Shown one piece after another: positions 40,143-64,000 of a stretch of 64,000 nt of DNA (its first letter is position 1; each line of letters begins with the position of its first letter). The notes beneath the pieces are model-generated. The model was not told where the DNA came from and did no database searches. It saw only the letters and a program-made list of their open reading frames with translations. Source of the stretch: an uncultured Pelagibacteraceae bacterium. Its GTDB lineage: Bacteria > Pseudomonadota > Alphaproteobacteria > Pelagibacterales > Pelagibacteraceae. Location of the stretch: positions 1 through 64,000 of the forward strand of contig CABYVK010000003.1 in the NCBI GenBank assembly GCA_902522385.1, given 5' to 3'. The position numbers were made by a program, and so were the translations under genes.

Positions 40143-41468
40143 GTGTCTAAAGATTTATTTAAAATAGCTAAACAAAAAGAAATTAAATATTTTTTAATTA
40201 GTTTCGTAGATTTGTTTGGCGTATTAAGATCAAAACTAGTCCCTGCACATGCTATTAAAGAGATGCAAGTTGCAGGAGCAGGTTTTGCAGGTTTTGCTGC
40301 TTGGTTAGATATGACACCTGCTGACTCTGATATGTTTGGAATTCCTGATCCAGATAGCTTAATCCAGCTTCCTTGGAACAAAGAGGTAGGATGGTTAGCT
40401 TCTGATCTATGGATGAATGGTAAACCAGTAGATGCGTCGCCTAGGGTAATGTTAAAAAATCAAATAAAAAAACTTAAAAAACAAAATTTAACAATGAAAT
40501 CAGGTGTTGAGTGTGAATATTTTTTGATTTCACCTGATGGCGGCTCAATTGCAGATCCAAGAGATACACAATCCAAGCCTTGTTATGATCAATCAGCATT
40601 AATGAGAAGGTATGATCTAATTAAGGAAATTTGTGACTGTATGATTGAAATGGGATGGGGCCCATATCAAAATGATCATGAAGATGCTAATGGACAATTT
40701 GAAATGAATTGGGATTATTCAGATTGCTTAAAAACAGCAGATAGACATACTTTTTTTAAATTTATGGTAAAAACAATTGCTGAAAAGCACGGATTGAGAG
40801 CAACATTTATGCCTAAACCATTCGAAAATCTGACAGGTAACGGTTGTCATGCCCATGTATCTGTTTGGCAAGGTAGTAAAAATAAATTCTTAGACAATAA
40901 AGATAAACTAGGTTTAAGTAAAATGGCGTATAATTTTTTAGGTGGAGTAATTAAAAATGCTTCATCTTTATCTGCATTTTTTAACCCAACAATAAATAGC
41001 TATCGGAGAATTAACGCACCACCAACTAAGTCTGGAGCATCGTGGTCACCAAGTAGTATATCCTACACGGGTAATAATAGAACACATATGATTAGAATAC
41101 CTGATCCAGGAAGGTTTGAATTAAGATTGATGGATGGTTCTGCTAATCCTTACTTGTTACAAGCAAGCGTTTTAGCAGCAGGTCTATATGGTTTAAAAAA
41201 TAAAGTTAATCCAGGTGAACCTTTGGATTGTAATATGTATGAAGACCATGCAAAGTATCCTGACTTACCAAAACTGCCTGATAAACTTACACATTCTTTG
41301 AATTTATTACAAAATAATAAAGAAATGAATGAAGCTTTTGGAAAAGAAACAATCAATAGTTATATAAAACTCAGAAAATCTGAAATTGAGGAATTTGATA
41401 ATAAAGAAAACTTCGATAAGTCCAAACCTGTAACTCAATGGGAAAGACAAAATACTTTAGACTGTTAA
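40143..41468 (+). CDS. glnT: Glutamine synthetase-like protein (type III/GlnT, GmaS paralogue)
   Basis: This 441-aa GS-fold protein uses a GTG start at 40143, the only start in the frame after the upstream gene. Motifs: KSGVECEYFLISPDGG (ATP/metal), QNDHEDANGQFEMNWDYSD, TGNGCHAHVSVWQGS, TINSYRRIN, and IPDPGRFELRLMDGSANPYLLQAS. It resembles GmaS strongly but is shorter. Its own substrate could be ammonium (glutamine synthesis) or an amine. It is one base upstream of the ammonia-lyase-like gene and downstream of amt. Confidence 0.8.
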   Translation: MSKDLFKIAKQKEIKYFLISFVDLFGVLRSKLVPAHAIKEMQVAGAGFAGFAAWLDMTPADSDMFGIPDPDSLIQLPWNKEVGWLASDLWMNGKPVDASPRVMLKNQIKKLKKQNLTMKSGVECEYFLISPDGGSIADPRDTQSKPCYDQSALMRRYDLIKEICDCMIEMGWGPYQNDHEDANGQFEMNWDYSDCLKTADRHTFFKFMVKTIAEKHGLRATFMPKPFENLTGNGCHAHVSVWQGSKNKFLDNKDKLGLSKMAYNFLGGVIKNASSLSAFFNPTINSYRRINAPPTKSGASWSPSSISYTGNNRTHMIRIPDPGRFELRLMDGSANPYLLQASVLAAGLYGLKNKVNPGEPLDCNMYEDHAKYPDLPKLPDKLTHSLNLLQNNKEMNEAFGKETINSYIKLRKSEIEEFDNKENFDKSKPVTQWERQNTLDC

Positions 41469-41469
41469 A

Positions 41470-42603
41470 GTGAAGAGTTTAAAAAGTATTAAGAACTGGA
41501 CACTTACAAAATCTTTAAAAAATAATAATTTTGGTTTTAAAAGAAATTATGTTTTAAGATTTGTCCCTTCATTACTATTAACAAACGCTTTTAAATCAAT
41601 TTCCAGTTGGAAAAATTATAAAGCAACCCCACTATTAAAGCTTGAGAAATTACAAAAAAATTTAAAACTTAATAGTGTTTTTTATAAAGATGAATCTAAA
41701 AGATTTCATTTAAAATCATTTAAAGCTTTAGGTGGAGCTTATGCTGTTGAAAAAATATCTAAAGGAAAAAAAAATATAATCATTTCCTCAGCAACCGCTG
41801 GGAACCATGGAAGATCTGTAGCATGGGGTGCTAAAAGGTTGGGTTTAAAATGTAAAATATTTGTTAGTCAATACGTTAGTGACACAAGAGTTAAAGAAAT
41901 TAAAAAATTCGGTGCCGAAGTAATAAGAGTTAAGGGTGATTATGAAAATTCACTTAACGAATGTAAAAAGTTATCAAAAAAAAATAATTGGAAAATTGTT
42001 CAAGATGTTTCAACAAAAGAATATAAATTAGTTCCTCAACTTACCATGGCAGGATATTCCATAATGATTAAAGAAATTTCTAAACAAACAAATCAATATA
42101 TAACCCATATTTTCTTACAAGCTGGTGTTGGTGGTATGGCTGCTGGTGTAGTTGCTGGTGTTGCAAAATATTTTAAAAGAATTCCAAAGATCATAATTGT
42201 TGAGCCTGATAGAGCTGATTGTGTTCTTCAAAGCATAAAACACAATAAATTAAAAAAAATTAAAATTAAAAAGGAGAGCATCATGGGTGGTATGTCATGT
42301 AATGAAATGTCATATATTCCTTGGCAAATATTGAAAAAAACGAGCAATTGTTGTGTGTCTGTAAGTGATCGAAATATTGCTAAAACTGTAGCGATGTTGA
42401 AAGACAAAAAGCTTAGTAAAAATTCAATAATTGGTGGAGAGTGCTCTGCACCTGGTATTATAAGCCTGGTAGGCGTTTGTAATAATACTAAAACTAAAAA
42501 ACTTTTAGAGCTTAACGAAAATTCTAATGTTTTGGTAATAGGATGCGAAGGTAATGCAGATGTAAAACTTTACAAACAACTGTTATCTAAAGGCAGAAAA
42601 TAA
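41470..42603 (+). CDS. Diaminopropionate ammonia-lyase-like PLP enzyme
   Basis: This 377-aa fold type II PLP enzyme starts at GTG. The FHLKSFKALGGAYA segment (PLP lysine Lys85) and ATAGNHGRSVAWGAKRLG, QDVSTKEYKLVPQLTMAGYS and EPDRADCVLQS with GGMSCNEMSYIPWQIL follow diaminopropionate ammonia-lyase rather than threonine synthase. The enzyme would release ammonia and pyruvate from 2,3-diaminopropionate or a similar amino acid. It is one base from glnT, so its ammonia may be re-assimilated by that enzyme. Serine/threonine dehydratase activity is an alternative. Confidence 0.7.
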   Translation: MKSLKSIKNWTLTKSLKNNNFGFKRNYVLRFVPSLLLTNAFKSISSWKNYKATPLLKLEKLQKNLKLNSVFYKDESKRFHLKSFKALGGAYAVEKISKGKKNIIISSATAGNHGRSVAWGAKRLGLKCKIFVSQYVSDTRVKEIKKFGAEVIRVKGDYENSLNECKKLSKKNNWKIVQDVSTKEYKLVPQLTMAGYSIMIKEISKQTNQYITHIFLQAGVGGMAAGVVAGVAKYFKRIPKIIIVEPDRADCVLQSIKHNKLKKIKIKKESIMGGMSCNEMSYIPWQILKKTSNCCVSVSDRNIAKTVAMLKDKKLSKNSIIGGECSAPGIISLVGVCNNTKTKKLLELNENSNVLVIGCEGNADVKLYKQLLSKGRK

Positions 42604-51518: not shown

Positions 51519-52697
51519 ATGAGTATAGATAACAATTTATATGAAAAATCAATCAAGATTTTAACTGACTTAATCGCATTTAAAACTATCTCAGGTCAAG
51601 ATAACAGTAATTTAATTGATTATTGTGAAAAAATTTTAAAGAGCATCGATATAGATACTTTCAAAATTTATGATGCTGATAAAAAAAGAGTTAATCTTTT
51701 TGGAACCTTAAAAGCAAAAAATCAAAGCACAAAAAAACCCATCATATTATCTGGACACACTGATGTGGTTCCAGTGTCTAAAGGTTGGAGCAGTGATCCA
51801 TTCGTAGCAACTATTAAAGATGATAAATTATATGGAAGAGGCTCATGTGATATGAAAGGTTTTATTGCATGTACACTTGCTTATGCACCTATATTCAAAG
51901 AAAGTAATTTAGATAGAGACTTACATTTCTGTTATACATTTGATGAAGAGACTGCATGTATTGGAGCTCCTTTATTAATAGAGGAACTGAAAAAAAGAGA
52001 TATCAAAAATGGGATTTGTATAATTGGTGAACCAACTAAAATGAAAATTATTGATGCCCACAAAGGTATGAATGAATACACAGTTCACTTTGGAGGACTT
52101 GCAGGACATAGTTCTAAACCACATTTAGGAGTAAATGCAGCTGAATATGCTACTAGATATGTTGGAAAACTTTTAGAGATTAGAGAAGAATTAAAAAAAA
52201 GAGTTCAAAAAGATAGTATTTTTGATCCTCCACATTCAACTTTATCAATTGGTGGAATTAACGGTGGTATTGCTCATAATGTAATTGCAGATAAATGTAG
52301 TGTTGAATGGGAAACAAGACCAGTTGTTAAAGATGATGGAGAATTTGTTACGAAAGAAATTGATAAATATGCGAATGAGGTGCTTCTGCCAGAAATGAAA
52401 AAAGTATTTCCAGATTCTTATATTAAAAAAGAAGTGATAGGTGAAGTAGTTGGTTTTAACAGATTAGATGAGTCTGAAGCATGTGAATTTGTATCAAACA
52501 TAACTGGTGATAATTCTAGAGAAGTGGTTTCTTTTGGAACAGAAGCTGGTTTATTTCAAGAACTAGGCATCAGTACTGTTGTTTGTGGACCTGGATCGAT
52601 AGAACAGGCTCACAAAATTGACGAGTTCATAGAATTAAATGAAATGAAAAAGTGCCTAAAGTTTTTAGAAGGTGTAAAAGATAAATCAGTAAATTAA
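51519..52697 (+). CDS. argE: Acetylornithine deacetylase/M20 peptidase family
   Basis: This 392-aa M20 zinc hydrolase has metal motifs LSGHTDVVPVSKGWSSDPF, GRGSCDMKGFIACTL, DEETACIGA and GEPTKMKIIDAHKG, and a C-terminal GTEAGLFQELGIS/CGPGSIEQAHKIDEF. ArgE releases ornithine from N-acetylornithine. The neighbouring agmatinase and aldehyde dehydrogenase genes allow a role in other amide or polyamine-derived substrates. The 3' end overlaps the convergent aldehyde dehydrogenase gene by 4 bases. Confidence 0.85.
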   Translation: MSIDNNLYEKSIKILTDLIAFKTISGQDNSNLIDYCEKILKSIDIDTFKIYDADKKRVNLFGTLKAKNQSTKKPIILSGHTDVVPVSKGWSSDPFVATIKDDKLYGRGSCDMKGFIACTLAYAPIFKESNLDRDLHFCYTFDEETACIGAPLLIEELKKRDIKNGICIIGEPTKMKIIDAHKGMNEYTVHFGGLAGHSSKPHLGVNAAEYATRYVGKLLEIREELKKRVQKDSIFDPPHSTLSIGGINGGIAHNVIADKCSVEWETRPVVKDDGEFVTKEIDKYANEVLLPEMKKVFPDSYIKKEVIGEVVGFNRLDESEACEFVSNITGDNSREVVSFGTEAGLFQELGISTVVCGPGSIEQAHKIDEFIELNEMKKCLKFLEGVKDKSVN

Positions 52698-55888: not shown

Positions 55889-56539
55889 ATGATAAAAAAA
55901 GTTAAAGCCTCCCTACATGAAAAATTAATATTTTTTTTTTTAATTTTACTTGGAGTTTTTGCTTTAAGTTTTGCAATTGTAGTAAAAAATAAGTGCTTGT
56001 TTGTGAAAAATTTTGATCCACAAAAAATTAATTTTGAAAAACCAAATAATATTGTTGTGCTTAATGCTGAATGTGGCAATGTCATAATTGAACTCTATCC
56101 TGAGATTTCTCCAAATGGAGTAGAAAGATTTAAAAAATTAATCAATCTAAAAGCATATGACAATGTTGCTTTTCATAGAGTGATTAAAGATAAACTAGTT
56201 CAGGCAGGTGATCTTGAGTTTGGAAAAAAAGATAAATTAGATTATGAAAAAATTGGAACTGGTAAATCAGGTCTAGGTAATATTAAATCAGAGGTTGACG
56301 CTGAGTTTAATTTTGAGAGAGGTTCAGTTGGTTTAGCGAGAACTTTAAAATATGATACTGAAGATAGTCAGTTTTTTATTATTCTTGATAATGAGCCACT
56401 ATTTGAGGGCGAGTATACTCCTTTAGGTAAAGTGATTTACGGTATCAATGTGTTAGAAAAAATTAGATACTCTCATAGATCTGAATATGTTCTTAGACCC
56501 GATTTTATATATACAGTCAGGATGTTAAGTAAAAATTAA
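55889..56539 (+). CDS. Membrane-anchored cyclophilin-type peptidyl-prolyl isomerase
   Basis: This 216-aa protein has an N-terminal transmembrane anchor (about 13-33) and a cyclophilin domain: NVIIELYPEISPNGVERFKKLI, VAFHRVIKDKLVQAGD, GSVGLARTLKYDTEDSQFFIILD and YTPLGKVIYGINVLEKI. It catalyses proline isomerisation, probably on the periplasmic face. It directly follows the exported metallopeptidase gene and overlaps the convergent fadJ-like gene by 4 bases. Confidence 0.85.
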   Translation: MIKKVKASLHEKLIFFFLILLGVFALSFAIVVKNKCLFVKNFDPQKINFEKPNNIVVLNAECGNVIIELYPEISPNGVERFKKLINLKAYDNVAFHRVIKDKLVQAGDLEFGKKDKLDYEKIGTGKSGLGNIKSEVDAEFNFERGSVGLARTLKYDTEDSQFFIILDNEPLFEGEYTPLGKVIYGINVLEKIRYSHRSEYVLRPDFIYTVRMLSKN

Positions 56540-58758
56540 TTAACTAGTGGCTTACCAGTTGCGAGTGTATGTTTGATTCTATCTTGAGTTTCCATAGTTT
56601 CAATCAGTCTCATAAAAGCATCCAATTCTAATTTGTATAAATCATCTTCTGATAATGTTTTTTCAATTGAGGTATCGCCACCACTCAATACATGAGCTAG
56701 TTCTTGTGCTACTTTTAAACCATGATCTAGTATAACTTTATCATTATATAATTTTTCTAAAATTTTATTCATTTCTGGAAGAACTGTTTTGCCTGGAAGA
56801 TTAAATTTTAATTCTGACGAAGCTTTAAAGTCTTTATTGTTATTCAAAATTTCCATTGAAACTTCTAATAAGCTATTTCTATTCATAATTTTTTTATCTT
56901 GAGGTTTTAGATATTTCATAGGTTCTGCCTCAACTGGTGATGTGGCTGTTTTACCGTAACCGATTATATCAAATACTTTAAGAGGTGCGTAATGGGGATC
57001 TTTTTTAGCTTCATCTGTATCAAGCCATCTTGCTAGCATTTCCTTACAGCCACCACCTGCTGGAATTAAGCCAACAATAGTTTCTACTAAACCAACAACT
57101 ATGTTTGTATGAGAAGCTACAAAATTACTTTGCACCATCACCTCAAATCCTCCACCAAGAGTTAAACCTGAGGGAGCTGAAATCACAGGATATTCAGAAT
57201 ATTTTAAATGCTTACATGTTTCTTGAAAATATTTAATAAATTTTTCAATAGATTTAAAATCACCTTTATTAGCAAAATCCATTGTATAAGTTAAATTTAC
57301 TCCAGCAGAAAATTGCATACTCTCATTGATGATAATTAAAGGTTTGTCGGTTGCTTTTTTAAGTGCATCCATTGAGTCATAGTCAAGTGCATTAGCTTTA
57401 GTAGTAAACTCAACAATATTATAATCTTGAAAACGATAAACTTGAGCCGAATTATTTCCATCAATGCTCATAGCTTTTTTCTTAACTTTTCCTAGGGTTT
57501 CAATATCAGTATATTTTTGTCTAGAACCGTAAAAATTTTGATCTTTACTTTTAGATAATTTTTCTAAAAACTCATTTCCTTTAATTTCATCAACTTTACT
57601 AAAAAAGTTTTCAACACCTATCTCTTCTAACATTTCAAACGGACCTTTTGCCCAGTTAAAACCCAGTCTCATTGCCTCATCTATATCATTAAATTCCTTG
57701 GTAATACCTGGTACTAAAGATGATGAATATTTTATAATCTTTGAAATAACAGACCAAGCATACTCTCCAAATTTATCATCTCTTGAGATCAAAGATTTTA
57801 AATCAACTTTATCAGTACCAATTTTAATTTTTTGACTAACAGAATACTCGCCCGTTTCTAAATTAATTGCCTCCATAATCTTAGTTTCACCAATTTTATT
57901 CATTCGGTAAAAACCACCTTTTCCTTTTCGGCCAGTGTAACCTGTTTCAATTAATTTTTTTACTAGGGGAATTTCTTTAGCAACTTCCTGGAAAGGGTCA
58001 TTTTCAGGTAGCTCTTTAATAAAACTTTTCAAAACATCAGCCATTAAATCAATTCCGATTAAATCATAAAGACCAAAAACTCCTGTTTTTGGAATACCCA
58101 TTGGTCTTCCGAATATTGCATCAGCTTCTTCAATGCTAAGTTTCATTTTAAAAGCTTCTGTCATTGCAATTTGCATTGCAAAAACACCTATTCTGTTACC
58201 TAGAAATCCTGGAGTGTCATTACAAACAATTGCGCCTTTACCTAATTCTATTTCGCAAAACTTCTTAAGTGAATTAATCTTCTCTAAATCATTATTTTCA
58301 TTTTTAACTATCTCTAATAATCCCATGTATCTAACTGGGTTAAAAAAATGAGTAATACAAAAATCTTTTTTTTCTTCTGAGGTTAATTTTTCTGATAAAA
58401 CTTTAATTGGTATTGAAGATGTATTTGATGAAACAATTGCTCCATCTTTTCTATTTTTAAATATTTTTTCATATATATTATGTTTAATATCAATTCTCTC
58501 AACAACTGCTTCAACAACCCAATCTGCATCTTTAACAACATCAAAGTTATCATTAATATTGCCAACTTTAATATTATCTATTTTAGATTTATCCAATAGT
58601 AATGGTGGTTTTGAGTTGAATATTCGATCTCTTGCCTTTTCAGAAATCTCGGTTGTTAAATCTAAAAGAGTTACTGGAATTTTTGCGTTACATAAATGTG
58701 CTGCTATTCCGCTACCCATTGTTCCTGATCCGATAACAACAACTTTTTTAATATCCAT
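56536..58758 (-). CDS. 3-hydroxyacyl-CoA dehydrogenase/enoyl-CoA hydratase fusion (beta-oxidation)
   Basis: This 740-aa fusion has the dehydrogenase first (GSGTMGSGIAAHL loop at 10-22, THFFNPVRYMGLLEI with the catalytic His, then FLGNRIGVFAM) and the enoyl-CoA hydratase second (about 440-620). The hydratase catalytic glutamates are both present, 20 residues apart: GGGFEVM and VGLVETIVG. Order is reversed relative to E. coli FadB. It likely works in fatty-acyl-CoA or side-chain degradation. It lies 42 bases after potC, apparently in the same transcript. Confidence 0.9.
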   Translation of the reverse strand: MDIKKVVVIGSGTMGSGIAAHLCNAKIPVTLLDLTTEISEKARDRIFNSKPPLLLDKSKIDNIKVGNINDNFDVVKDADWVVEAVVERIDIKHNIYEKIFKNRKDGAIVSSNTSSIPIKVLSEKLTSEEKKDFCITHFFNPVRYMGLLEIVKNENNDLEKINSLKKFCEIELGKGAIVCNDTPGFLGNRIGVFAMQIAMTEAFKMKLSIEEADAIFGRPMGIPKTGVFGLYDLIGIDLMADVLKSFIKELPENDPFQEVAKEIPLVKKLIETGYTGRKGKGGFYRMNKIGETKIMEAINLETGEYSVSQKIKIGTDKVDLKSLISRDDKFGEYAWSVISKIIKYSSSLVPGITKEFNDIDEAMRLGFNWAKGPFEMLEEIGVENFFSKVDEIKGNEFLEKLSKSKDQNFYGSRQKYTDIETLGKVKKKAMSIDGNNSAQVYRFQDYNIVEFTTKANALDYDSMDALKKATDKPLIIINESMQFSAGVNLTYTMDFANKGDFKSIEKFIKYFQETCKHLKYSEYPVISAPSGLTLGGGFEVMVQSNFVASHTNIVVGLVETIVGLIPAGGGCKEMLARWLDTDEAKKDPHYAPLKVFDIIGYGKTATSPVEAEPMKYLKPQDKKIMNRNSLLEVSMEILNNNKDFKASSELKFNLPGKTVLPEMNKILEKLYNDKVILDHGLKVAQELAHVLSGGDTSIEKTLSEDDLYKLELDAFMRLIETMETQDRIKHTLATGKPLVN

Positions 58759-58800
58759 AATTATAATATCCTTAATGAAAAAAATAATTAATTAAAATGA

Positions 58801-59655
58801 TTATCTATTAATCCCTCTAAGTCTCTCAGATCTTCTTCTTAATAATTCTGCAGTTACTAAAATTAAAGTAGACATAACAATTAAACATGTTGCCACAGCC
58901 ATAATAGTTGGACTTAACTGTTCTCTTAAACCAACCCACATTTGAATTGGAATAGTTGTGTTTTCTAACCCAGCTAAGAATAGCACTACTACAACTTCAT
59001 CAAATGAAGTAACAAATGCGAATAAAGCTCCAGATATTACTCCTGGCATAATTAAAGGTAATGTAATTTTCATAAATGTATTAACTGGATTACTTCCTAA
59101 GCTTGCTGCTGCTCTAGTTACACTATGATCAAAGCCTGACAATGTTGCTGTAACTGTGATTACTACAAATGGCGTACCTAAGATTATATGAGCCAGTACA
59201 ATTCCTGTATGAGTAGCTGCTAAGCCAACTTTTGCCATAAAAAAGAAAATTGCTGTACCAGATATAATTAGAGGTACAATCATTGGTGAAATTAATAACG
59301 CCATAAAAGCTGCTTTATATGGCATGTGCCTACTACTTAAACCTAGAGCCGCAACTGTTCCTAAAATTGTAGCACCGATTGTTGCAAAGAAAGCAATAAT
59401 TAAACTATTTTTAGTTGCCAAACCCCATGGATTTTTAGTTCCATAAATCATATCTTCATACCATCTTAAAGAGAAACCTTCAGGATCAAGTGCAAGCATC
59501 TTAGCTGAAAAATGGATATATTGTTCTGCGTTGAATGAAAGTGGCAAAATTACAAACAGTGGAGCTATCAAAAAGAAGAACACTAAAAAACAAAAAGTTA
59601 AATATGTGTAATGCCATATTCTATAATTTAATGGTGTATGGTTTGGTAATGCCAT
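58801..59655 (-). CDS. potC: ABC permease, PotC-type
   Basis: This 284-aa inner-membrane permease has about six helices. The EAA loop reads TRAAASLGSNPVNTFMKITLPLIMPG near 190-210. It is the second permease of a spermidine/putrescine-type importer. The start lies 2 bases after the potB stop. Polyamine specificity is the family annotation, not a proven substrate. Confidence 0.88.
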   Translation of the reverse strand: MALPNHTPLNYRIWHYTYLTFCFLVFFFLIAPLFVILPLSFNAEQYIHFSAKMLALDPEGFSLRWYEDMIYGTKNPWGLATKNSLIIAFFATIGATILGTVAALGLSSRHMPYKAAFMALLISPMIVPLIISGTAIFFFMAKVGLAATHTGIVLAHIILGTPFVVITVTATLSGFDHSVTRAAASLGSNPVNTFMKITLPLIMPGVISGALFAFVTSFDEVVVVLFLAGLENTTIPIQMWVGLREQLSPTIMAVATCLIVMSTLILVTAELLRRRSERLRGINR

Positions 59656-59657
59656 AA

Positions 59658-60905
59658 TTATCCTAATTTAATATTATCAATTCCAACTAATTTATTATAA
59701 ACCCAGTATATAGCCAACACTCCTACTAATAGCATTGTTCCAAGAGCAGATGCAAAAGCCCAGTCTAGTGAACTTTTCATGTGATAAGCTATATTGTTAC
59801 TAATCAAAGATCCACTTGCTCCACCCACTAAAGCTGGGGTGATATAGTAACCAATTGCTAAAATAAATACCAGTAAACTTCCTGCGCCAATTCCTGGGAT
59901 TGTTAATGGAAAATAAATTTTAAAAAATGAAACTAATGGAGTTCCACCTAATGATTTTCCAGCTCTCATTAAACTTGGAGAGATTGTTTTCATGACACTA
60001 TAAAGTGGAAGAACCATAAATGGGAGTAAAATTTGTGTCATTGCAACAAATGTACCAATTACATTATACATTAATTCTGGCCTGTTATCGTCCGCAGCCC
60101 AACCCAACCAAACAATTAAATCATTAATTGGTCCTTGCTGTTGTAGCAATACCATCCAACTTGATGTTCTAACTAACAGTGAAGTCCAAAAAGGAAGCAG
60201 AACACAAATCATCAACAAATTGCTATATTTCATTGGTAAAGTAGCCAATAAGTGTGCAATTGGATAAGCGAGAATAAAACAGAAAATTGTAACCCAAAAA
60301 GCTACATTTATTGTTCTCAGCCAAAGTGTTTTATAAATACGTCTATCTTCATCTTGTTGAATAATATTTCTTTTTTCATCAAATTTTAAATCTACCCCCT
60401 TTAAATATTTAGCATAAGACCAATTGGGAGCAGTATTTTTTAAAGCAACCAAATATTCAGATTGGCCCCATCTTTTGTGAATTTTAATAAACTGTTCTTT
60501 ATAATTACCCTCTTCAAGTTTATCTATTTTTCTTATTGTTTTTTTTATTAAGCTACTGAAACCTGATTTTTCATAATTTAATCTTGCTATGATTTTTCCA
60601 AAGGTTTTATTCTTTTTTAATAAACTCAGGTCTTCATAAAGTCCTTCATATACAGGTTCATCTGGCAAGTCTTGTCCGTCCCATTTTTCCATTGCAACAA
60701 ATGTTTTAGGTAGCATCTTGGTGATCATTCGATCATCAACACTTCTAAATAACATGTCACCAATTGGAAATATGTAAATAATTAAAATAAATAAAAATAA
60801 TGGAGCAACAAGTAAAAGTGCTTTTAATTTATTTTTACGTTCAGCCTTTTTAAGACTTTCCTCTAAGGGTATTCCGTCTGATGATAAAATTTGTTCTTTG
60901 CTCAT
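59658..60905 (-). CDS. potB: ABC permease, PotB-type with a long inserted loop
   Basis: This 415-aa permease is longer than usual (about 280-300 aa). After the first helix (about 29-50) comes an insert of about 150 residues (55-195), charged and tryptophan-containing (EKWDGQDLPDEPVYEGL; RWGQSEYLVALKNTAPNW), before the second helix. The EAA loop MRAGKSLGGTPLVSFFKIYFPLTIPG sits near 315. The ATG at 60905 is directly downstream of a terminator T run, with no Shine-Dalgarno between them. Confidence 0.85.
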   Translation of the reverse strand: MSKEQILSSDGIPLEESLKKAERKNKLKALLLVAPLFLFILIIYIFPIGDMLFRSVDDRMITKMLPKTFVAMEKWDGQDLPDEPVYEGLYEDLSLLKKNKTFGKIIARLNYEKSGFSSLIKKTIRKIDKLEEGNYKEQFIKIHKRWGQSEYLVALKNTAPNWSYAKYLKGVDLKFDEKRNIIQQDEDRRIYKTLWLRTINVAFWVTIFCFILAYPIAHLLATLPMKYSNLLMICVLLPFWTSLLVRTSSWMVLLQQQGPINDLIVWLGWAADDNRPELMYNVIGTFVAMTQILLPFMVLPLYSVMKTISPSLMRAGKSLGGTPLVSFFKIYFPLTIPGIGAGSLLVFILAIGYYITPALVGGASGSLISNNIAYHMKSSLDWAFASALGTMLLVGVLAIYWVYNKLVGIDNIKLG

Positions 60906-60938
60906 AAAAAAAAGGGCAGTTAAATCTAACTGCCCTTT
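60906..60938 (-). terminator. Stem-loop between potD and potB, abutting the potB start
   Basis: On the minus strand a 9-bp stem (GGGCAGTTA/TAACTGCCC, extendable by AAA/TTT) is followed by eight T residues that end at the potB ATG. It looks like an attenuator lowering permease expression relative to the binding protein. Confidence 0.85.
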
Positions 60939-60972
60939 AATATATTATAAAAAACTATTCTATAAAACTAAA

Positions 60973-62100
60973 TTATAGACCAGCTTTCATTGCTTCCCAT
61001 TTCTCATTAATCTCATCCTGGTTATCTGCCCAGTAGTCCGGATTCATAAGAATGTGACTTTTTAAGTTAGCTGGAGCTGTTGGCATATGTGGTACCATGT
61101 TTGTTTTACCATCTTTATACCATGGCTCTCCTGCTTCCATAACTGCAATTGAAGACTTTCTCCAAGGTGCGTAAGCAATGTATTTAGCACTTCCAGCTAG
61201 ACCTTCTGAACTTGTCATTTCTCTAAGTACTTTCATAGCATCACCATTGGAATAATTTGGACCATCTTTTACTAAAGCAAAATATTCATAGTCTAAGATT
61301 TGTGCATCCCAAACTTGAACAAGTGGAGTTCCTTCCATTTGCGCGTTAAAGAATCTGCCATTCCAACCGGTAGCCATAACTACTTCACCATTAGCTAATA
61401 GTTCTGGTGGTTGAGCACCAGCATTCCAAAATACACATCCACCATTTGGATCTGTACATAATGCTTTAATTTTATTTAAAGCTCTGTCAATACCAGCACC
61501 TTCCATTTTTCTATAAAGTAAGTCTCCACCAGCTTGTGATCCGCTAGCTTTTACTCCATCAGCAACTAATGCGATCTCTAAATTAGACATAGCACCTTTA
61601 TAGATTGCTCTTTTTCCTGGAAATTTTTTAGTATCAAAGAAGTCTTTAATTTTTGTTGGCTTCTTAGAACCAATTGTTGCATCGTTATAAGCAAAGTTCC
61701 AAGAGTACAGAATGTTTCCTACTGCACATTTAGAAGGCATGCTTGTAAAGAAGTCCTGACTTGCAGGTGTTCCATCTGGAGCAGGTGCAAAGTCTTTGTC
61801 AAAATCAAATTCATGGAAAATCCCTTCGTCACATCCAATGATTGTATCTTTTGCATATACATCCATGATGTCCCAAGTAATTTTTCCAGCTTCTTTTTGA
61901 GCTTTAATTTCTGATAATCCACCAGTGTAGTCTACCCAATTAACAGGTATACCTAACTTTTTAGCAGTTGGATCACCATAACCCAATTTTTGTGACTCTG
62001 TGTAAGCACCACCCCATGACACTACAGTTACTGCGAATGCTGAAGTTGTTACAGAAAGTACAAAAGAAAGAGCAAGTAATAATTTACTTAATTTTTTCAT
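60973..62100 (-). CDS. potD: Periplasmic polyamine-type binding protein, PotD
   Basis: This 375-aa family 1 extracellular binding protein has a signal peptide (1-23, ending TTSAFA). VVSWGGAYTESQKLGYGDPTAKKLG near 25-50, a WDIMDVYAKDT segment near 77-90 and SNLEIALVADGVKAS near 165 follow the PotD/PotF type. AGGAGA lies 5-10 bases before the ATG. It has its own strong promoter candidate and is followed by a terminator, which fits high expression. The likely substrates are spermidine or putrescine, but this family also includes binders of other compounds. Confidence 0.85.
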   Translation of the reverse strand: MKKLSKLLLALSFVLSVTTSAFAVTVVSWGGAYTESQKLGYGDPTAKKLGIPVNWVDYTGGLSEIKAQKEAGKITWDIMDVYAKDTIIGCDEGIFHEFDFDKDFAPAPDGTPASQDFFTSMPSKCAVGNILYSWNFAYNDATIGSKKPTKIKDFFDTKKFPGKRAIYKGAMSNLEIALVADGVKASGSQAGGDLLYRKMEGAGIDRALNKIKALCTDPNGGCVFWNAGAQPPELLANGEVVMATGWNGRFFNAQMEGTPLVQVWDAQILDYEYFALVKDGPNYSNGDAMKVLREMTSSEGLAGSAKYIAYAPWRKSSIAVMEAGEPWYKDGKTNMVPHMPTAPANLKSHILMNPDYWADNQDEINEKWEAMKAGL

Positions 62101-62114
62101 TTATTCTCCTATTT

Positions 62115-62126
62115 AACGTTAACGTT
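62115..62126. promoter_or_regulatory. 12-base palindrome AACGTTAACGTT in the potD leader
   Basis: A perfect palindrome lies between the predicted potD start site and its Shine-Dalgarno, adjoining a run of ten T (A on the transcribed strand). It is well placed for an operator controlling potD. Confidence 0.5.
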
Positions 62127-62144
62127 TTTTTTTTATAAAATGAA

Positions 62145-62173
62145 ATTAAAACAAGATAGGAAAGCTTAGTCAA
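62145..62173 (-). promoter_or_regulatory. Predicted potD promoter (TTGACT-N17-TTTAAT)
   Basis: On the minus strand, -35 TTGACT (62168-62173) and extended -10 TGTTTTAAT (TTTAAT at 62145-62150) have 17-base spacing. Transcription would start near 62138, upstream of the palindrome. The 125-base gap between potA and potD lets potD be transcribed independently. Confidence 0.6.
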
Positions 62174-62225
62174 CAGCTGATTCATGCCATTTTGGGTTGT
62201 TTATTTTGGTGTAATTTTTGATTAT

Positions 62226-63311
62226 TTATTTTGGATCTAGAGCGCGACAATCAATACTATTCCAGCCAATATTTATTTCTTTTCCTTCTTTGATATCCAT
62301 TCTATTAGAGCTGTTTGGCACTTTAAGAATAAAGTCTTTATTACCCAATAAATTTACTCTTAATCTAGTATGATCGCCATGATAAATGACTTCTTCGATT
62401 TTACCTTTATGATTATTGTCCATTGCAGCTTCAGGATCAATAATTGCTCTTTCTGGTCTTAAAGAAACAGTGGTTTTTTGTCCAATAGTTTTAGCTACAA
62501 TTGGATTTGCAATTATTTCTATGTTTGAATTTAACTTTACTTTACATTTATCCCCCGAAACATCAGTTACCTCTCCTGCAAAAGTATTATTCTCACCGAT
62601 AAACTCAGCAACAAATGAATTTACTGGTCTTTCATATAACTCGTCGGGACTTGAAAGCTGTTGAACTTTACCATCATTGAAAACAGCAATTCTATTCGAC
62701 ATTGTTAAAGCTTCAGTTTGATCATGTGTAACGTAAACAACTGTAACACCAATATTTTCATGAATATGTTTAATTTCGTATTGCATGCTTTCTCTTAAAT
62801 TTTTATCTAAAGCTCCTAAAGGCTCATCCATAAGAACTAGTTTTGGATCAAATACTAGTGATCTTGCAACAGCGACTCTTTGTTGTTGTCCCCCTGATAG
62901 CTGCATAGGCATCCTAGCTTCAAAACCTTGTAAAGAGACCATTGATAAAGCTTTATCAACTTTTTTATCAGCTTCATCTTTTGATATTTTCCTTACTCTT
63001 AAAGGAAAAGCCAAATTTTCATAAACAGTCATGTGAGGAAACAACGCATAATTTTGAAAAACCATTCCTATTCCTCTTTTATGAGGAGGTATGTCAGAAA
63101 TAACTCTATTATCTAGATATATTTGTCCATTAGTTGGTGTTTCAAAACCAGCCAACATCATCAAACATGTTGTTTTACCAGAACCAGATGGTCCAAGCAT
63201 TGTAACAAACTCTCCTTCTTCTATATCAAGATTAAGTCCTTTTACTACTAGTTGTTTGCCATCATAACTCTTGTCAACATTTTCAAATCTTACAAAGTGA
63301 TCATTACCCAT
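62226..63311 (-). CDS. potA: ABC ATPase, PotA-type
   Basis: This 361-aa ATPase has Walker A GPSGSGKTT (40-48), the Q loop MVFQNYALFPHMTV, signature LSGGQQQRVAVARSL, Walker B LVLMDEPLGALD and the TVVYVTHDQTEALTM switch. A C-terminal TOBE domain (about 245-355) fits the polyamine/iron/sulfate class. It lies 39 bases after the M24-like gene upstream and 125 bases before potD. Confidence 0.92.
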   Translation of the reverse strand: MGNDHFVRFENVDKSYDGKQLVVKGLNLDIEEGEFVTMLGPSGSGKTTCLMMLAGFETPTNGQIYLDNRVISDIPPHKRGIGMVFQNYALFPHMTVYENLAFPLRVRKISKDEADKKVDKALSMVSLQGFEARMPMQLSGGQQQRVAVARSLVFDPKLVLMDEPLGALDKNLRESMQYEIKHIHENIGVTVVYVTHDQTEALTMSNRIAVFNDGKVQQLSSPDELYERPVNSFVAEFIGENNTFAGEVTDVSGDKCKVKLNSNIEIIANPIVAKTIGQKTTVSLRPERAIIDPEAAMDNNHKGKIEEVIYHGDHTRLRVNLLGNKDFILKVPNSSNRMDIKEGKEINIGWNSIDCRALDPK

Positions 63312-63350: not shown

Positions 63351-64000
63351 TTATTTGATATGTAATTCCTTACTCATATTACAAAATAATTCACTTCCAT
63401 TTTCAGTTACTCTTATAGCCTCTGAGGCCTCTACTCCCCAGTCACCAAATTGCATAACAGCAATCATATGAAAACAAACGTTTGGTTCTAATATTGTCAT
63501 ATCACCTTTATATATATTTAAAGTATGTTCTCCCCAATCTGGAGGATATCCAATTCCAATTGAATAACCTGTTCTTGATTTTTTCTCTATTCCATATTTA
63601 TCTAATATTTTCCAAAAAGCTTGAGCTACATCATCTGCTGTATTTCCAGGTTTGATCGCTCTAATACCTGAGTTTAAAGCTTCAATAGTTTTATTCATTG
63701 TATCTATTTTCAATTGGTCAGGCTTTCCTAGCAGAACTGTTCTAGCCATTGGAGCATGATATCTCTTGTAAACACCAGATAATTCAATAATTGTAGCCTC
63801 TCCTTCTACAAATTTGTCTTGCGTTGCTGTTAAATGCGATGCCGAGGTTCCTTTTCCAGTTGGGAGTAAAGTTGCAATGCTAGAATATTCTCCTCCAAAT
63901 TCCTCTGTACCATAAAATAAAGTCTTTTGAATTTCACCTACTGCATCGCATTGTCTAACTCCTGGATTAATAACTTCCATAGCAGTCTTCATTCCTTTTT
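63351..64000 (-). CDS. M24-family creatinase/ectoine-hydrolase-like protein (5' truncated by window)
   Basis: The frame is open to the end of the window; only the C-terminal pita-bread domain is seen. GMKTAMEVINPGVRQCDAVGEI, EFGGEYSSIATLLPTGKGTSASHL, IIELSGVYKRYHAPMARTVLLGKP and GYSIGIGYPPDWGEHTL follow the creatinase/DoeA group. The usual M24 metal ligands (Asp-x-Gly...Asp, His, Glu) are mostly replaced, so a metal-free hydrolase like creatinase is likely. Being upstream of potA, it may process the compound imported by the PotABCD transporter. Confidence 0.75.
   Translation of the reverse strand, partial: KGMKTAMEVINPGVRQCDAVGEIQKTLFYGTEEFGGEYSSIATLLPTGKGTSASHLTATQDKFVEGEATIIELSGVYKRYHAPMARTVLLGKPDQLKIDTMNKTIEALNSGIRAIKPGNTADDVAQAFWKILDKYGIEKKSRTGYSIGIGYPPDWGEHTLNIYKGDMTILEPNVCFHMIAVMQFGDWGVEASEAIRVTENGSELFCNMSKELHIK

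Follow-up and report, generated by a model that had tools for sequence, protein, structure and literature searches.

A divergent homologue of ectoine hydrolase beside a Pot-type transporter operon in SAR11 bacteria

SAR11 bacteria are among the most abundant bacteria of the ocean. In most sampled Pelagibacteraceae, an M24-family gene and a eutA homologue are located next to an ABC transporter operon, an arrangement that suggests an unreported breakdown route for an ectoine-like compound. Assignment of the M24 protein as a metal-free, amidohydrolase-type relative of ectoine hydrolase (DoeA/EutD branch) is well supported at the family level. The overall explanation offered here, which we regard as evenly balanced between right and wrong, is that this divergent SAR11 homologue of EutD/DoeA has ectoine or a closely related cyclic amidine as its substrate, and that an ArgE-like step follows. 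No report of an ectoine hydrolase in SAR11 was found in the literature searched, the coverage of which was incomplete, and the main text of a 2026 survey of ectoine catabolism mentions neither Pelagibacter nor ArgE.

The window, i.e. the whole stretch of DNA analysed, corresponds to the first 64,000 bases of contig C3, which has a length of 97,671 bases and belongs to a 1.09-Mb Pelagibacteraceae genome with a completeness of 78%. The features of relevance here are the following:

63351..64000 (-): EutD/DoeA-like M24 gene, C-terminal part; the full gene (C3:63351-64517, 388 aa) extends beyond the window end
C3:64517-65263: eutA homologue, 248 aa, next after the M24 gene and outside the window
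62226..63311 (-): potA, ATPase of the ABC transporter, following the M24 gene after 39 bases
60973..62100 (-): potD, solute-binding protein of the SBP_bac_8 type, with 94.3% identity to PDB 8jv1
59658..60905 (-): potB, permease
58801..59655 (-): potC, permease
51519..52697 (+): M20 deacetylase of the ArgE type, proposed to take the role of the N-alpha-acetyl-diaminobutyrate deacetylase EutE

Family and ancestry of the M24 protein

Within the window, the M24 gene is seen as an open minus-strand frame (63351-63998) that is cut by the window end. The first-pass annotation had placed it 39 bases upstream of potA, exactly the intergenic distance measured here, and had taken its product for a metal-free M24 enzyme of the creatinase/ectoine-hydrolase type. 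The full-length protein features Creatinase_N and Peptidase_M24 domains (Pfam), and its nearest named relatives (92-96% identical) all belong to Pelagibacteraceae or Ca. Pelagibacter, with the exception of one MAG; the host is accordingly a SAR11 bacterium. Its top curated family is TIGR02993 (ectoine hydrolase DoeA), with a score of 454 bits that lies under the equivalog cut-off of 613 bits. Ectoine hydrolase DoeA is also the best solved match (PDB 6twj, 6twk, 6yo9; E=9e-102), followed at a great distance by prolidases (~1e-19) and creatinase 1chm (2e-11); the match to DoeA settles the fold. The positions of the prolidase metal ligands D, D, H, E and E are occupied by E245, P256, Y318, H350 and S365, so that none of the five is kept. 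At these same positions DoeA and its relatives feature E, P, Y, H and T, from which the SAR11 protein differs by a single T to S change, and H228 is also common to DoeA.

Two other identities were considered and rejected. The Peptidase_M24 domain and weak matches to PepQ and PepP could be reconciled with a metal-dependent aminopeptidase P or prolidase whose active site has degenerated, but no canonical metal ligand is kept, and the DoeA-type replacements at these positions are conserved across SAR11 M24 proteins. The full-length protein did not cluster with metal-dependent aminopeptidase P, and we give this possibility practically no chance. Creatinase shares both the fold and the metal-free M24 class with the SAR11 protein, but the similarity to this amidinohydrolase (1chm) is only distant and far below that to DoeA, and the M24 tree places the two on widely separated branches. 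Moreover, the only other M24 match in the same genome, on contig C21, retrieves solved creatinases (1chm) at E=1.5e-152. Because a true creatinase is thus encoded elsewhere in the genome, the M24 gene next to potA is very improbable as a second candidate for this function. The initial assignment therefore stands with respect to the metal-free ectoine-hydrolase type, DoeA/EutD branch with ligands replaced, and has to be given up with respect to creatinase.

The presence of creatinase in SAR11 had been noted earlier (PMC3686209). On contig C21 (genome G000, L002:251-2490), the true creatinase gene adjoins a gene for arginine:glycine amidinotransferase (E=8e-88). At a further locus (L053:5591-10392), creatinase and amidinotransferase genes are followed by a threonine-aldolase-like gene, recognised by eye, and by a third M24 paralogue (~28% identical). 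The genes in these creatinase rows could all feed glycine.

When 83 M24 proteins were placed in a tree, with SH-aLRT as the sole measure of support, the SAR11-type proteins and a protein from another alphaproteobacterial family (L197) form one clade with a support of 100. Its sister, at an SH-aLRT of only 83, is a clade of 30 sequences (support 100) that includes DoeA and also holds most of the EutDs linked to EutE, EutB or EutC. Two proteins encoded next to EutE (L191 and L192) are found outside both of these clades and inside a wider EutD group supported at 96, the outer members of which sit with EutE or with EutB/C/E. This bracketing favours an ectoine-type ancestor for the SAR11 protein, the exact branching being weak. 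In three genomes of one alphaproteobacterial family (G157, G245 and G320), six DoeA-like M24 paralogues were detected in each. The occurrence of up to six such paralogues per genome in other Alphaproteobacteria indicates that the family has diversified beyond the known ectoine hydrolases.

The SAR11 M24 protein is thus like DoeA/EutD in length, in its Creatinase_N domain, in its replaced ligands, in H228 and E245, and in its eutA neighbour. It differs in its lower score, in the lack of EutE and EutC, and in sequence: the SAR11 type keeps 62 of the positions that are near-invariant among 29 bona fide EutD proteins and departs from them at 28, the changes including two tryptophans (W241 to A231 and W367 to Q356, DoeA numbering first).

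A conserved gene block in SAR11

A single base is shared by the end of the eutA homologue and the beginning of the M24 gene. The best family for the 248-aa product of the eutA homologue is EutA (TIGR02990), with 203 bits against a cut-off of 318. The match extends over nearly the full length, and C87 and C197 are found in CTSG and CTAL motifs. The SAR11 homologue nevertheless differs from EutA, a member of the arylmalonate decarboxylase / Asp-Glu racemase superfamily, in its score below cut-off and in the lack of a eutC partner in Pelagibacteraceae.

The genes eutA-eutD-potA-D-B-C make up a conserved SAR11 block. Among 97 loci with a close M24 homologue, order-level relatives of SAR11 included, EutA is encoded upstream in 91/97 and potA is found downstream in 88/97, both on the same strand. 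EutD-like M24 genes were detected in 28 of 37 Pelagibacteraceae genomes, most of which are incomplete; for a second family of the order, the figure is 23 of 24. Since this gene order recurs across SAR11, the neighbourhood of the M24 and pot genes is not a matter of chance. Gene order in SAR11 is conserved in general, however, and synteny is for this reason weak evidence of function. No match to a riboswitch or other Rfam control element was obtained near the block. Known ectoine systems use UehPQM or EhuABCD transporters, whereas the transporter of the SAR11 block is of the Pot type (PMC13188858).

In the loci of the second family that were read, the transporter does not adjoin the M24 gene. 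In one genus of this family (L046), the M24 gene is paired with a gene for a DoeB2-like deacetylase, with a one-base overlap, and in a second genus (L050) genes for a diaminopropionate-ammonia-lyase-like, a DoeB2-like, an EutA-like and the M24 protein stand in a row. In a third genus (L043:9667-11948), an amidinotransferase 73% identical to the SAR11 one is encoded directly upstream of the EutD-like M24 gene.

The SAR11 block is flanked (window 56536-58758; L003:6567-10063) by a FadB-like dehydrogenase/crotonase fusion, a gamma-butyrobetaine-hydroxylase-like dioxygenase, a thioesterase-like gene and an ABC ATPase, which may belong to a carnitine-type route. Elsewhere in the window (40143-42603), a glutamine-synthetase-like gene adjoins a gene for diaminopropionate ammonia-lyase (375 bits, cut-off 276), a possible candidate pair for diamino-acid degradation.

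An ArgE-type deacetylase as candidate replacement for EutE

EutE (TIGR02994), EutC and DoeB2 (NF038260) were detected in 0/37 Pelagibacteraceae genomes, and no close orthologue of Atf was found in this family either, the best aminotransferase reaching 34%. The main new proposal that we draw from sequence comparison is that an ArgE-type enzyme may replace EutE, and that SAR11 carries a close relative of this enzyme. The ArgE-type gene of the window lies ~11 kb from the M24 gene, on the opposite strand and in a separate operon. Its product passes the cut-off of the acetylornithine-deacetylase family TIGR01892 (352 vs 297.7 bits), a score which cannot separate substrates because ArgE proteins encoded next to eutD pass it too. 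ArgE-type M20 proteins are found in 31/37 Pelagibacteraceae genomes (one fragment counted) and in 0/24 genomes of the other family of the order, in which DoeB2-like proteins are present in 23/24. ArgJ is present in both families (54/61 genomes), so that arginine synthesis should not need ArgE.

The six closest relatives of the SAR11 ArgE from outside SAR11 are all found in genomes with a EutD homologue (6/6, among 289 alphaproteobacterial genomes; P=3e-4), and four of these six directly adjoin it. The SAR11 ArgE clade and the eutD-adjacent ArgEs join at bootstrap 99 and SH-aLRT 95, apart from 21 other ArgEs. At one locus (L175:3812-9832), the gene order is eutD-argE-asnC-ssd-atf, the last three genes being named by family resemblance; EutD scores over the cut-off here, and the ArgE relative occupies the usual EutE slot. 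At another (L184:4338-10873), eutD-argE has eutB and eutC as neighbours, and the scores of both exceed the cut-off. The ArgE of L184 falls inside a clade of 11 sequences, and that of L175 branches outside it. Around L311 and L312, the closest argE genes without such a link, no ectoine gene was found within range. Next to eutD, EutE is encoded at 20 loci and ArgE at 8, with zero overlap (P=0.04 only, on an approximate count for the denominator). The same substitution may have occurred in other Alphaproteobacteria, in eutD clusters that lack EutE.

The SAR11 M24 protein could also be a neofunctionalised EutD homologue for another amidine, guanidino or N-acyl compound, without any role in ectoine breakdown, the substrate being possibly related to polyamines or GABA and brought in by the adjacent transporter. 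We take this as a serious possibility, yet lean against it. It would account for the missed equivalog cut-off, for the 28 changes at near-invariant positions and for the lack of EutE, EutC and Atf, and it fits with the multiple DoeA-like paralogues of other Alphaproteobacteria and with the tie of the adjacent transporter to polyamine uptake in SAR11 (PMC8437039). It does not sit easily, however, with a tree in which the SAR11 protein is bracketed by EutDs linked to EutE, EutB or EutC, with active-site positions that match those of DoeA, with the retention of EutA alongside, or with a SAR11 ArgE clade that is shared with eutD clusters.

The Pot-type transporter and the proposed route

The order of the ABC operon is potA-potD-potB-potC, 'Pot' being a family-level name only. 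That this transporter may bring in a substrate other than, or besides, polyamines had been suggested in the first-pass annotation, and the evidence on this point is divided. Window PotD is 94.3% identical to the SAR11-type proteins 8jv1-4, which were deposited as spermidine/putrescine-binding, and hence resembles the SAR11 PotABCD polyamine transporter (PMC8437039; PDB 8jv1). SAR11 strains take up five polyamines, although the attribution of this uptake to PotABCD was made without direct proof and is called unvalidated by its source (PMC8437039). The transporter could accordingly be a plain polyamine importer, with the adjacency of eutA and eutD a relic of gene order and the M24 substrate entering the cell otherwise, a reading that we judge to be almost, if not quite, evenly poised. 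An aminotransferase gene adjoins 10/40 Pot loci, which also agrees with it.

Several observations point away from polyamines as the sole ligands. After 8jv1-4, the solved structures closest to window PotD are those of GABA sensors and of proteins that bind GABA or opines, and PotD and PotF of E. coli are not among its PDB matches even at E<=10. The GABA site of Pf622 (PDB 9d57) includes, among others, W9, R205, D228 and Y264 (PMC12999171), and these residues are kept in window PotD as W29, R249, E272 and Y310. The arginine (R249) is invariant in 48/48 orthologues, and the D-to-E change at the acid is common only to SAR11 and the EutD-linked L257. SAR11 PotD is thereby related to this GABA binder in sequence and in the W, R, acid and Y of its site, but differs from it in the acid being E and not D, and in the pocket changes of T13 to Y and F100 to I. 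In P. aeruginosa, GABA or 5-aminovalerate is the preferred ligand of SBP_bac_8 proteins for which polyamine binding had been predicted (PMC11113362). Outside SAR11, eutD occurs no more than 10 kb from a Pot operon in 7 genomes from 5 genera, compared to an expectation of 0.33, and creatinase adjoins 6/40 Pot loci in other Alphaproteobacteria. The GABA-site residues and the links to eutD and creatinase make a carboxylate-bearing cation, such as ectoine, creatine or GABA, a plausible ligand of PotD, either in place of polyamines or together with them. The PotD tree did not separate polyamine-linked from amidine-linked transporters, and placed SAR11 PotD on a long branch with L257 (support 86).

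The creatinases encoded next to PotABCD operons (L246, L247, L252, L261, L268 and L270) are 53-64% identical to the SAR11 creatinase, hinting at a creatine importer in these cases. Two allele types of PotABCD occur at the same SAR11 site (window 55889-63311 compared to L097 and L121), with PotD mostly 73-75% identical to that of the window in one and 89-96% in the other, and with the adjoining M24 protein constant at 94-95%. Divergence of the PotD alleles while M24 stays alike suggests a recombination breakpoint between the M24 gene and potA.

In the ectoine route proposed here, the M24 gene would be co-transcribed with the eutA homologue and the SBP_bac_8-type 'Pot' ABC transporter, and the transporter would import the M24 substrate. 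The EutD-like M24 enzyme would most likely hydrolyse a C-N bond of ectoine or a similar cyclic amidine to yield an N-alpha-acetyl-diamino acid. The M20 enzyme of the ArgE type, for which the window also has the gene, would take over the role of EutE and deacetylate this product. Diaminobutyrate or an analogue would then enter amino-acid metabolism. This explanation draws on DoeA as top match, the DoeA-like ligand positions, the EutD bracketing in the tree, the conserved, overlapping or closely spaced junction with eutA, the DoeB2-like pairing in the second family, the distribution and clade of ArgE, and loci L175 and L184. It has to contend with M24 and EutA scores below cut-off, the 28 changes, the lack of EutE, EutC, DoeB2 and a close Atf, a sister support of 83, a distant argE gene whose product passes the acetylornithine-deacetylase cut-off, and synteny of little weight. 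The most specific form of the proposal, a streamlined SAR11 route for ectoine or other zwitterions in which PotABCD imports the compound, the EutD-like M24 enzyme opens it and deacetylation of the product falls to the ArgE-type enzyme instead of EutE or DoeB2, is unlikely to be correct in all its parts.

If the block does degrade ectoines, it would represent a major sink for a common compatible solute, and the substrate list of an abundant transporter would need to be drawn up anew. Replacement of EutE by ArgE, if true, would also explain the existence of eutD clusters without eutE.
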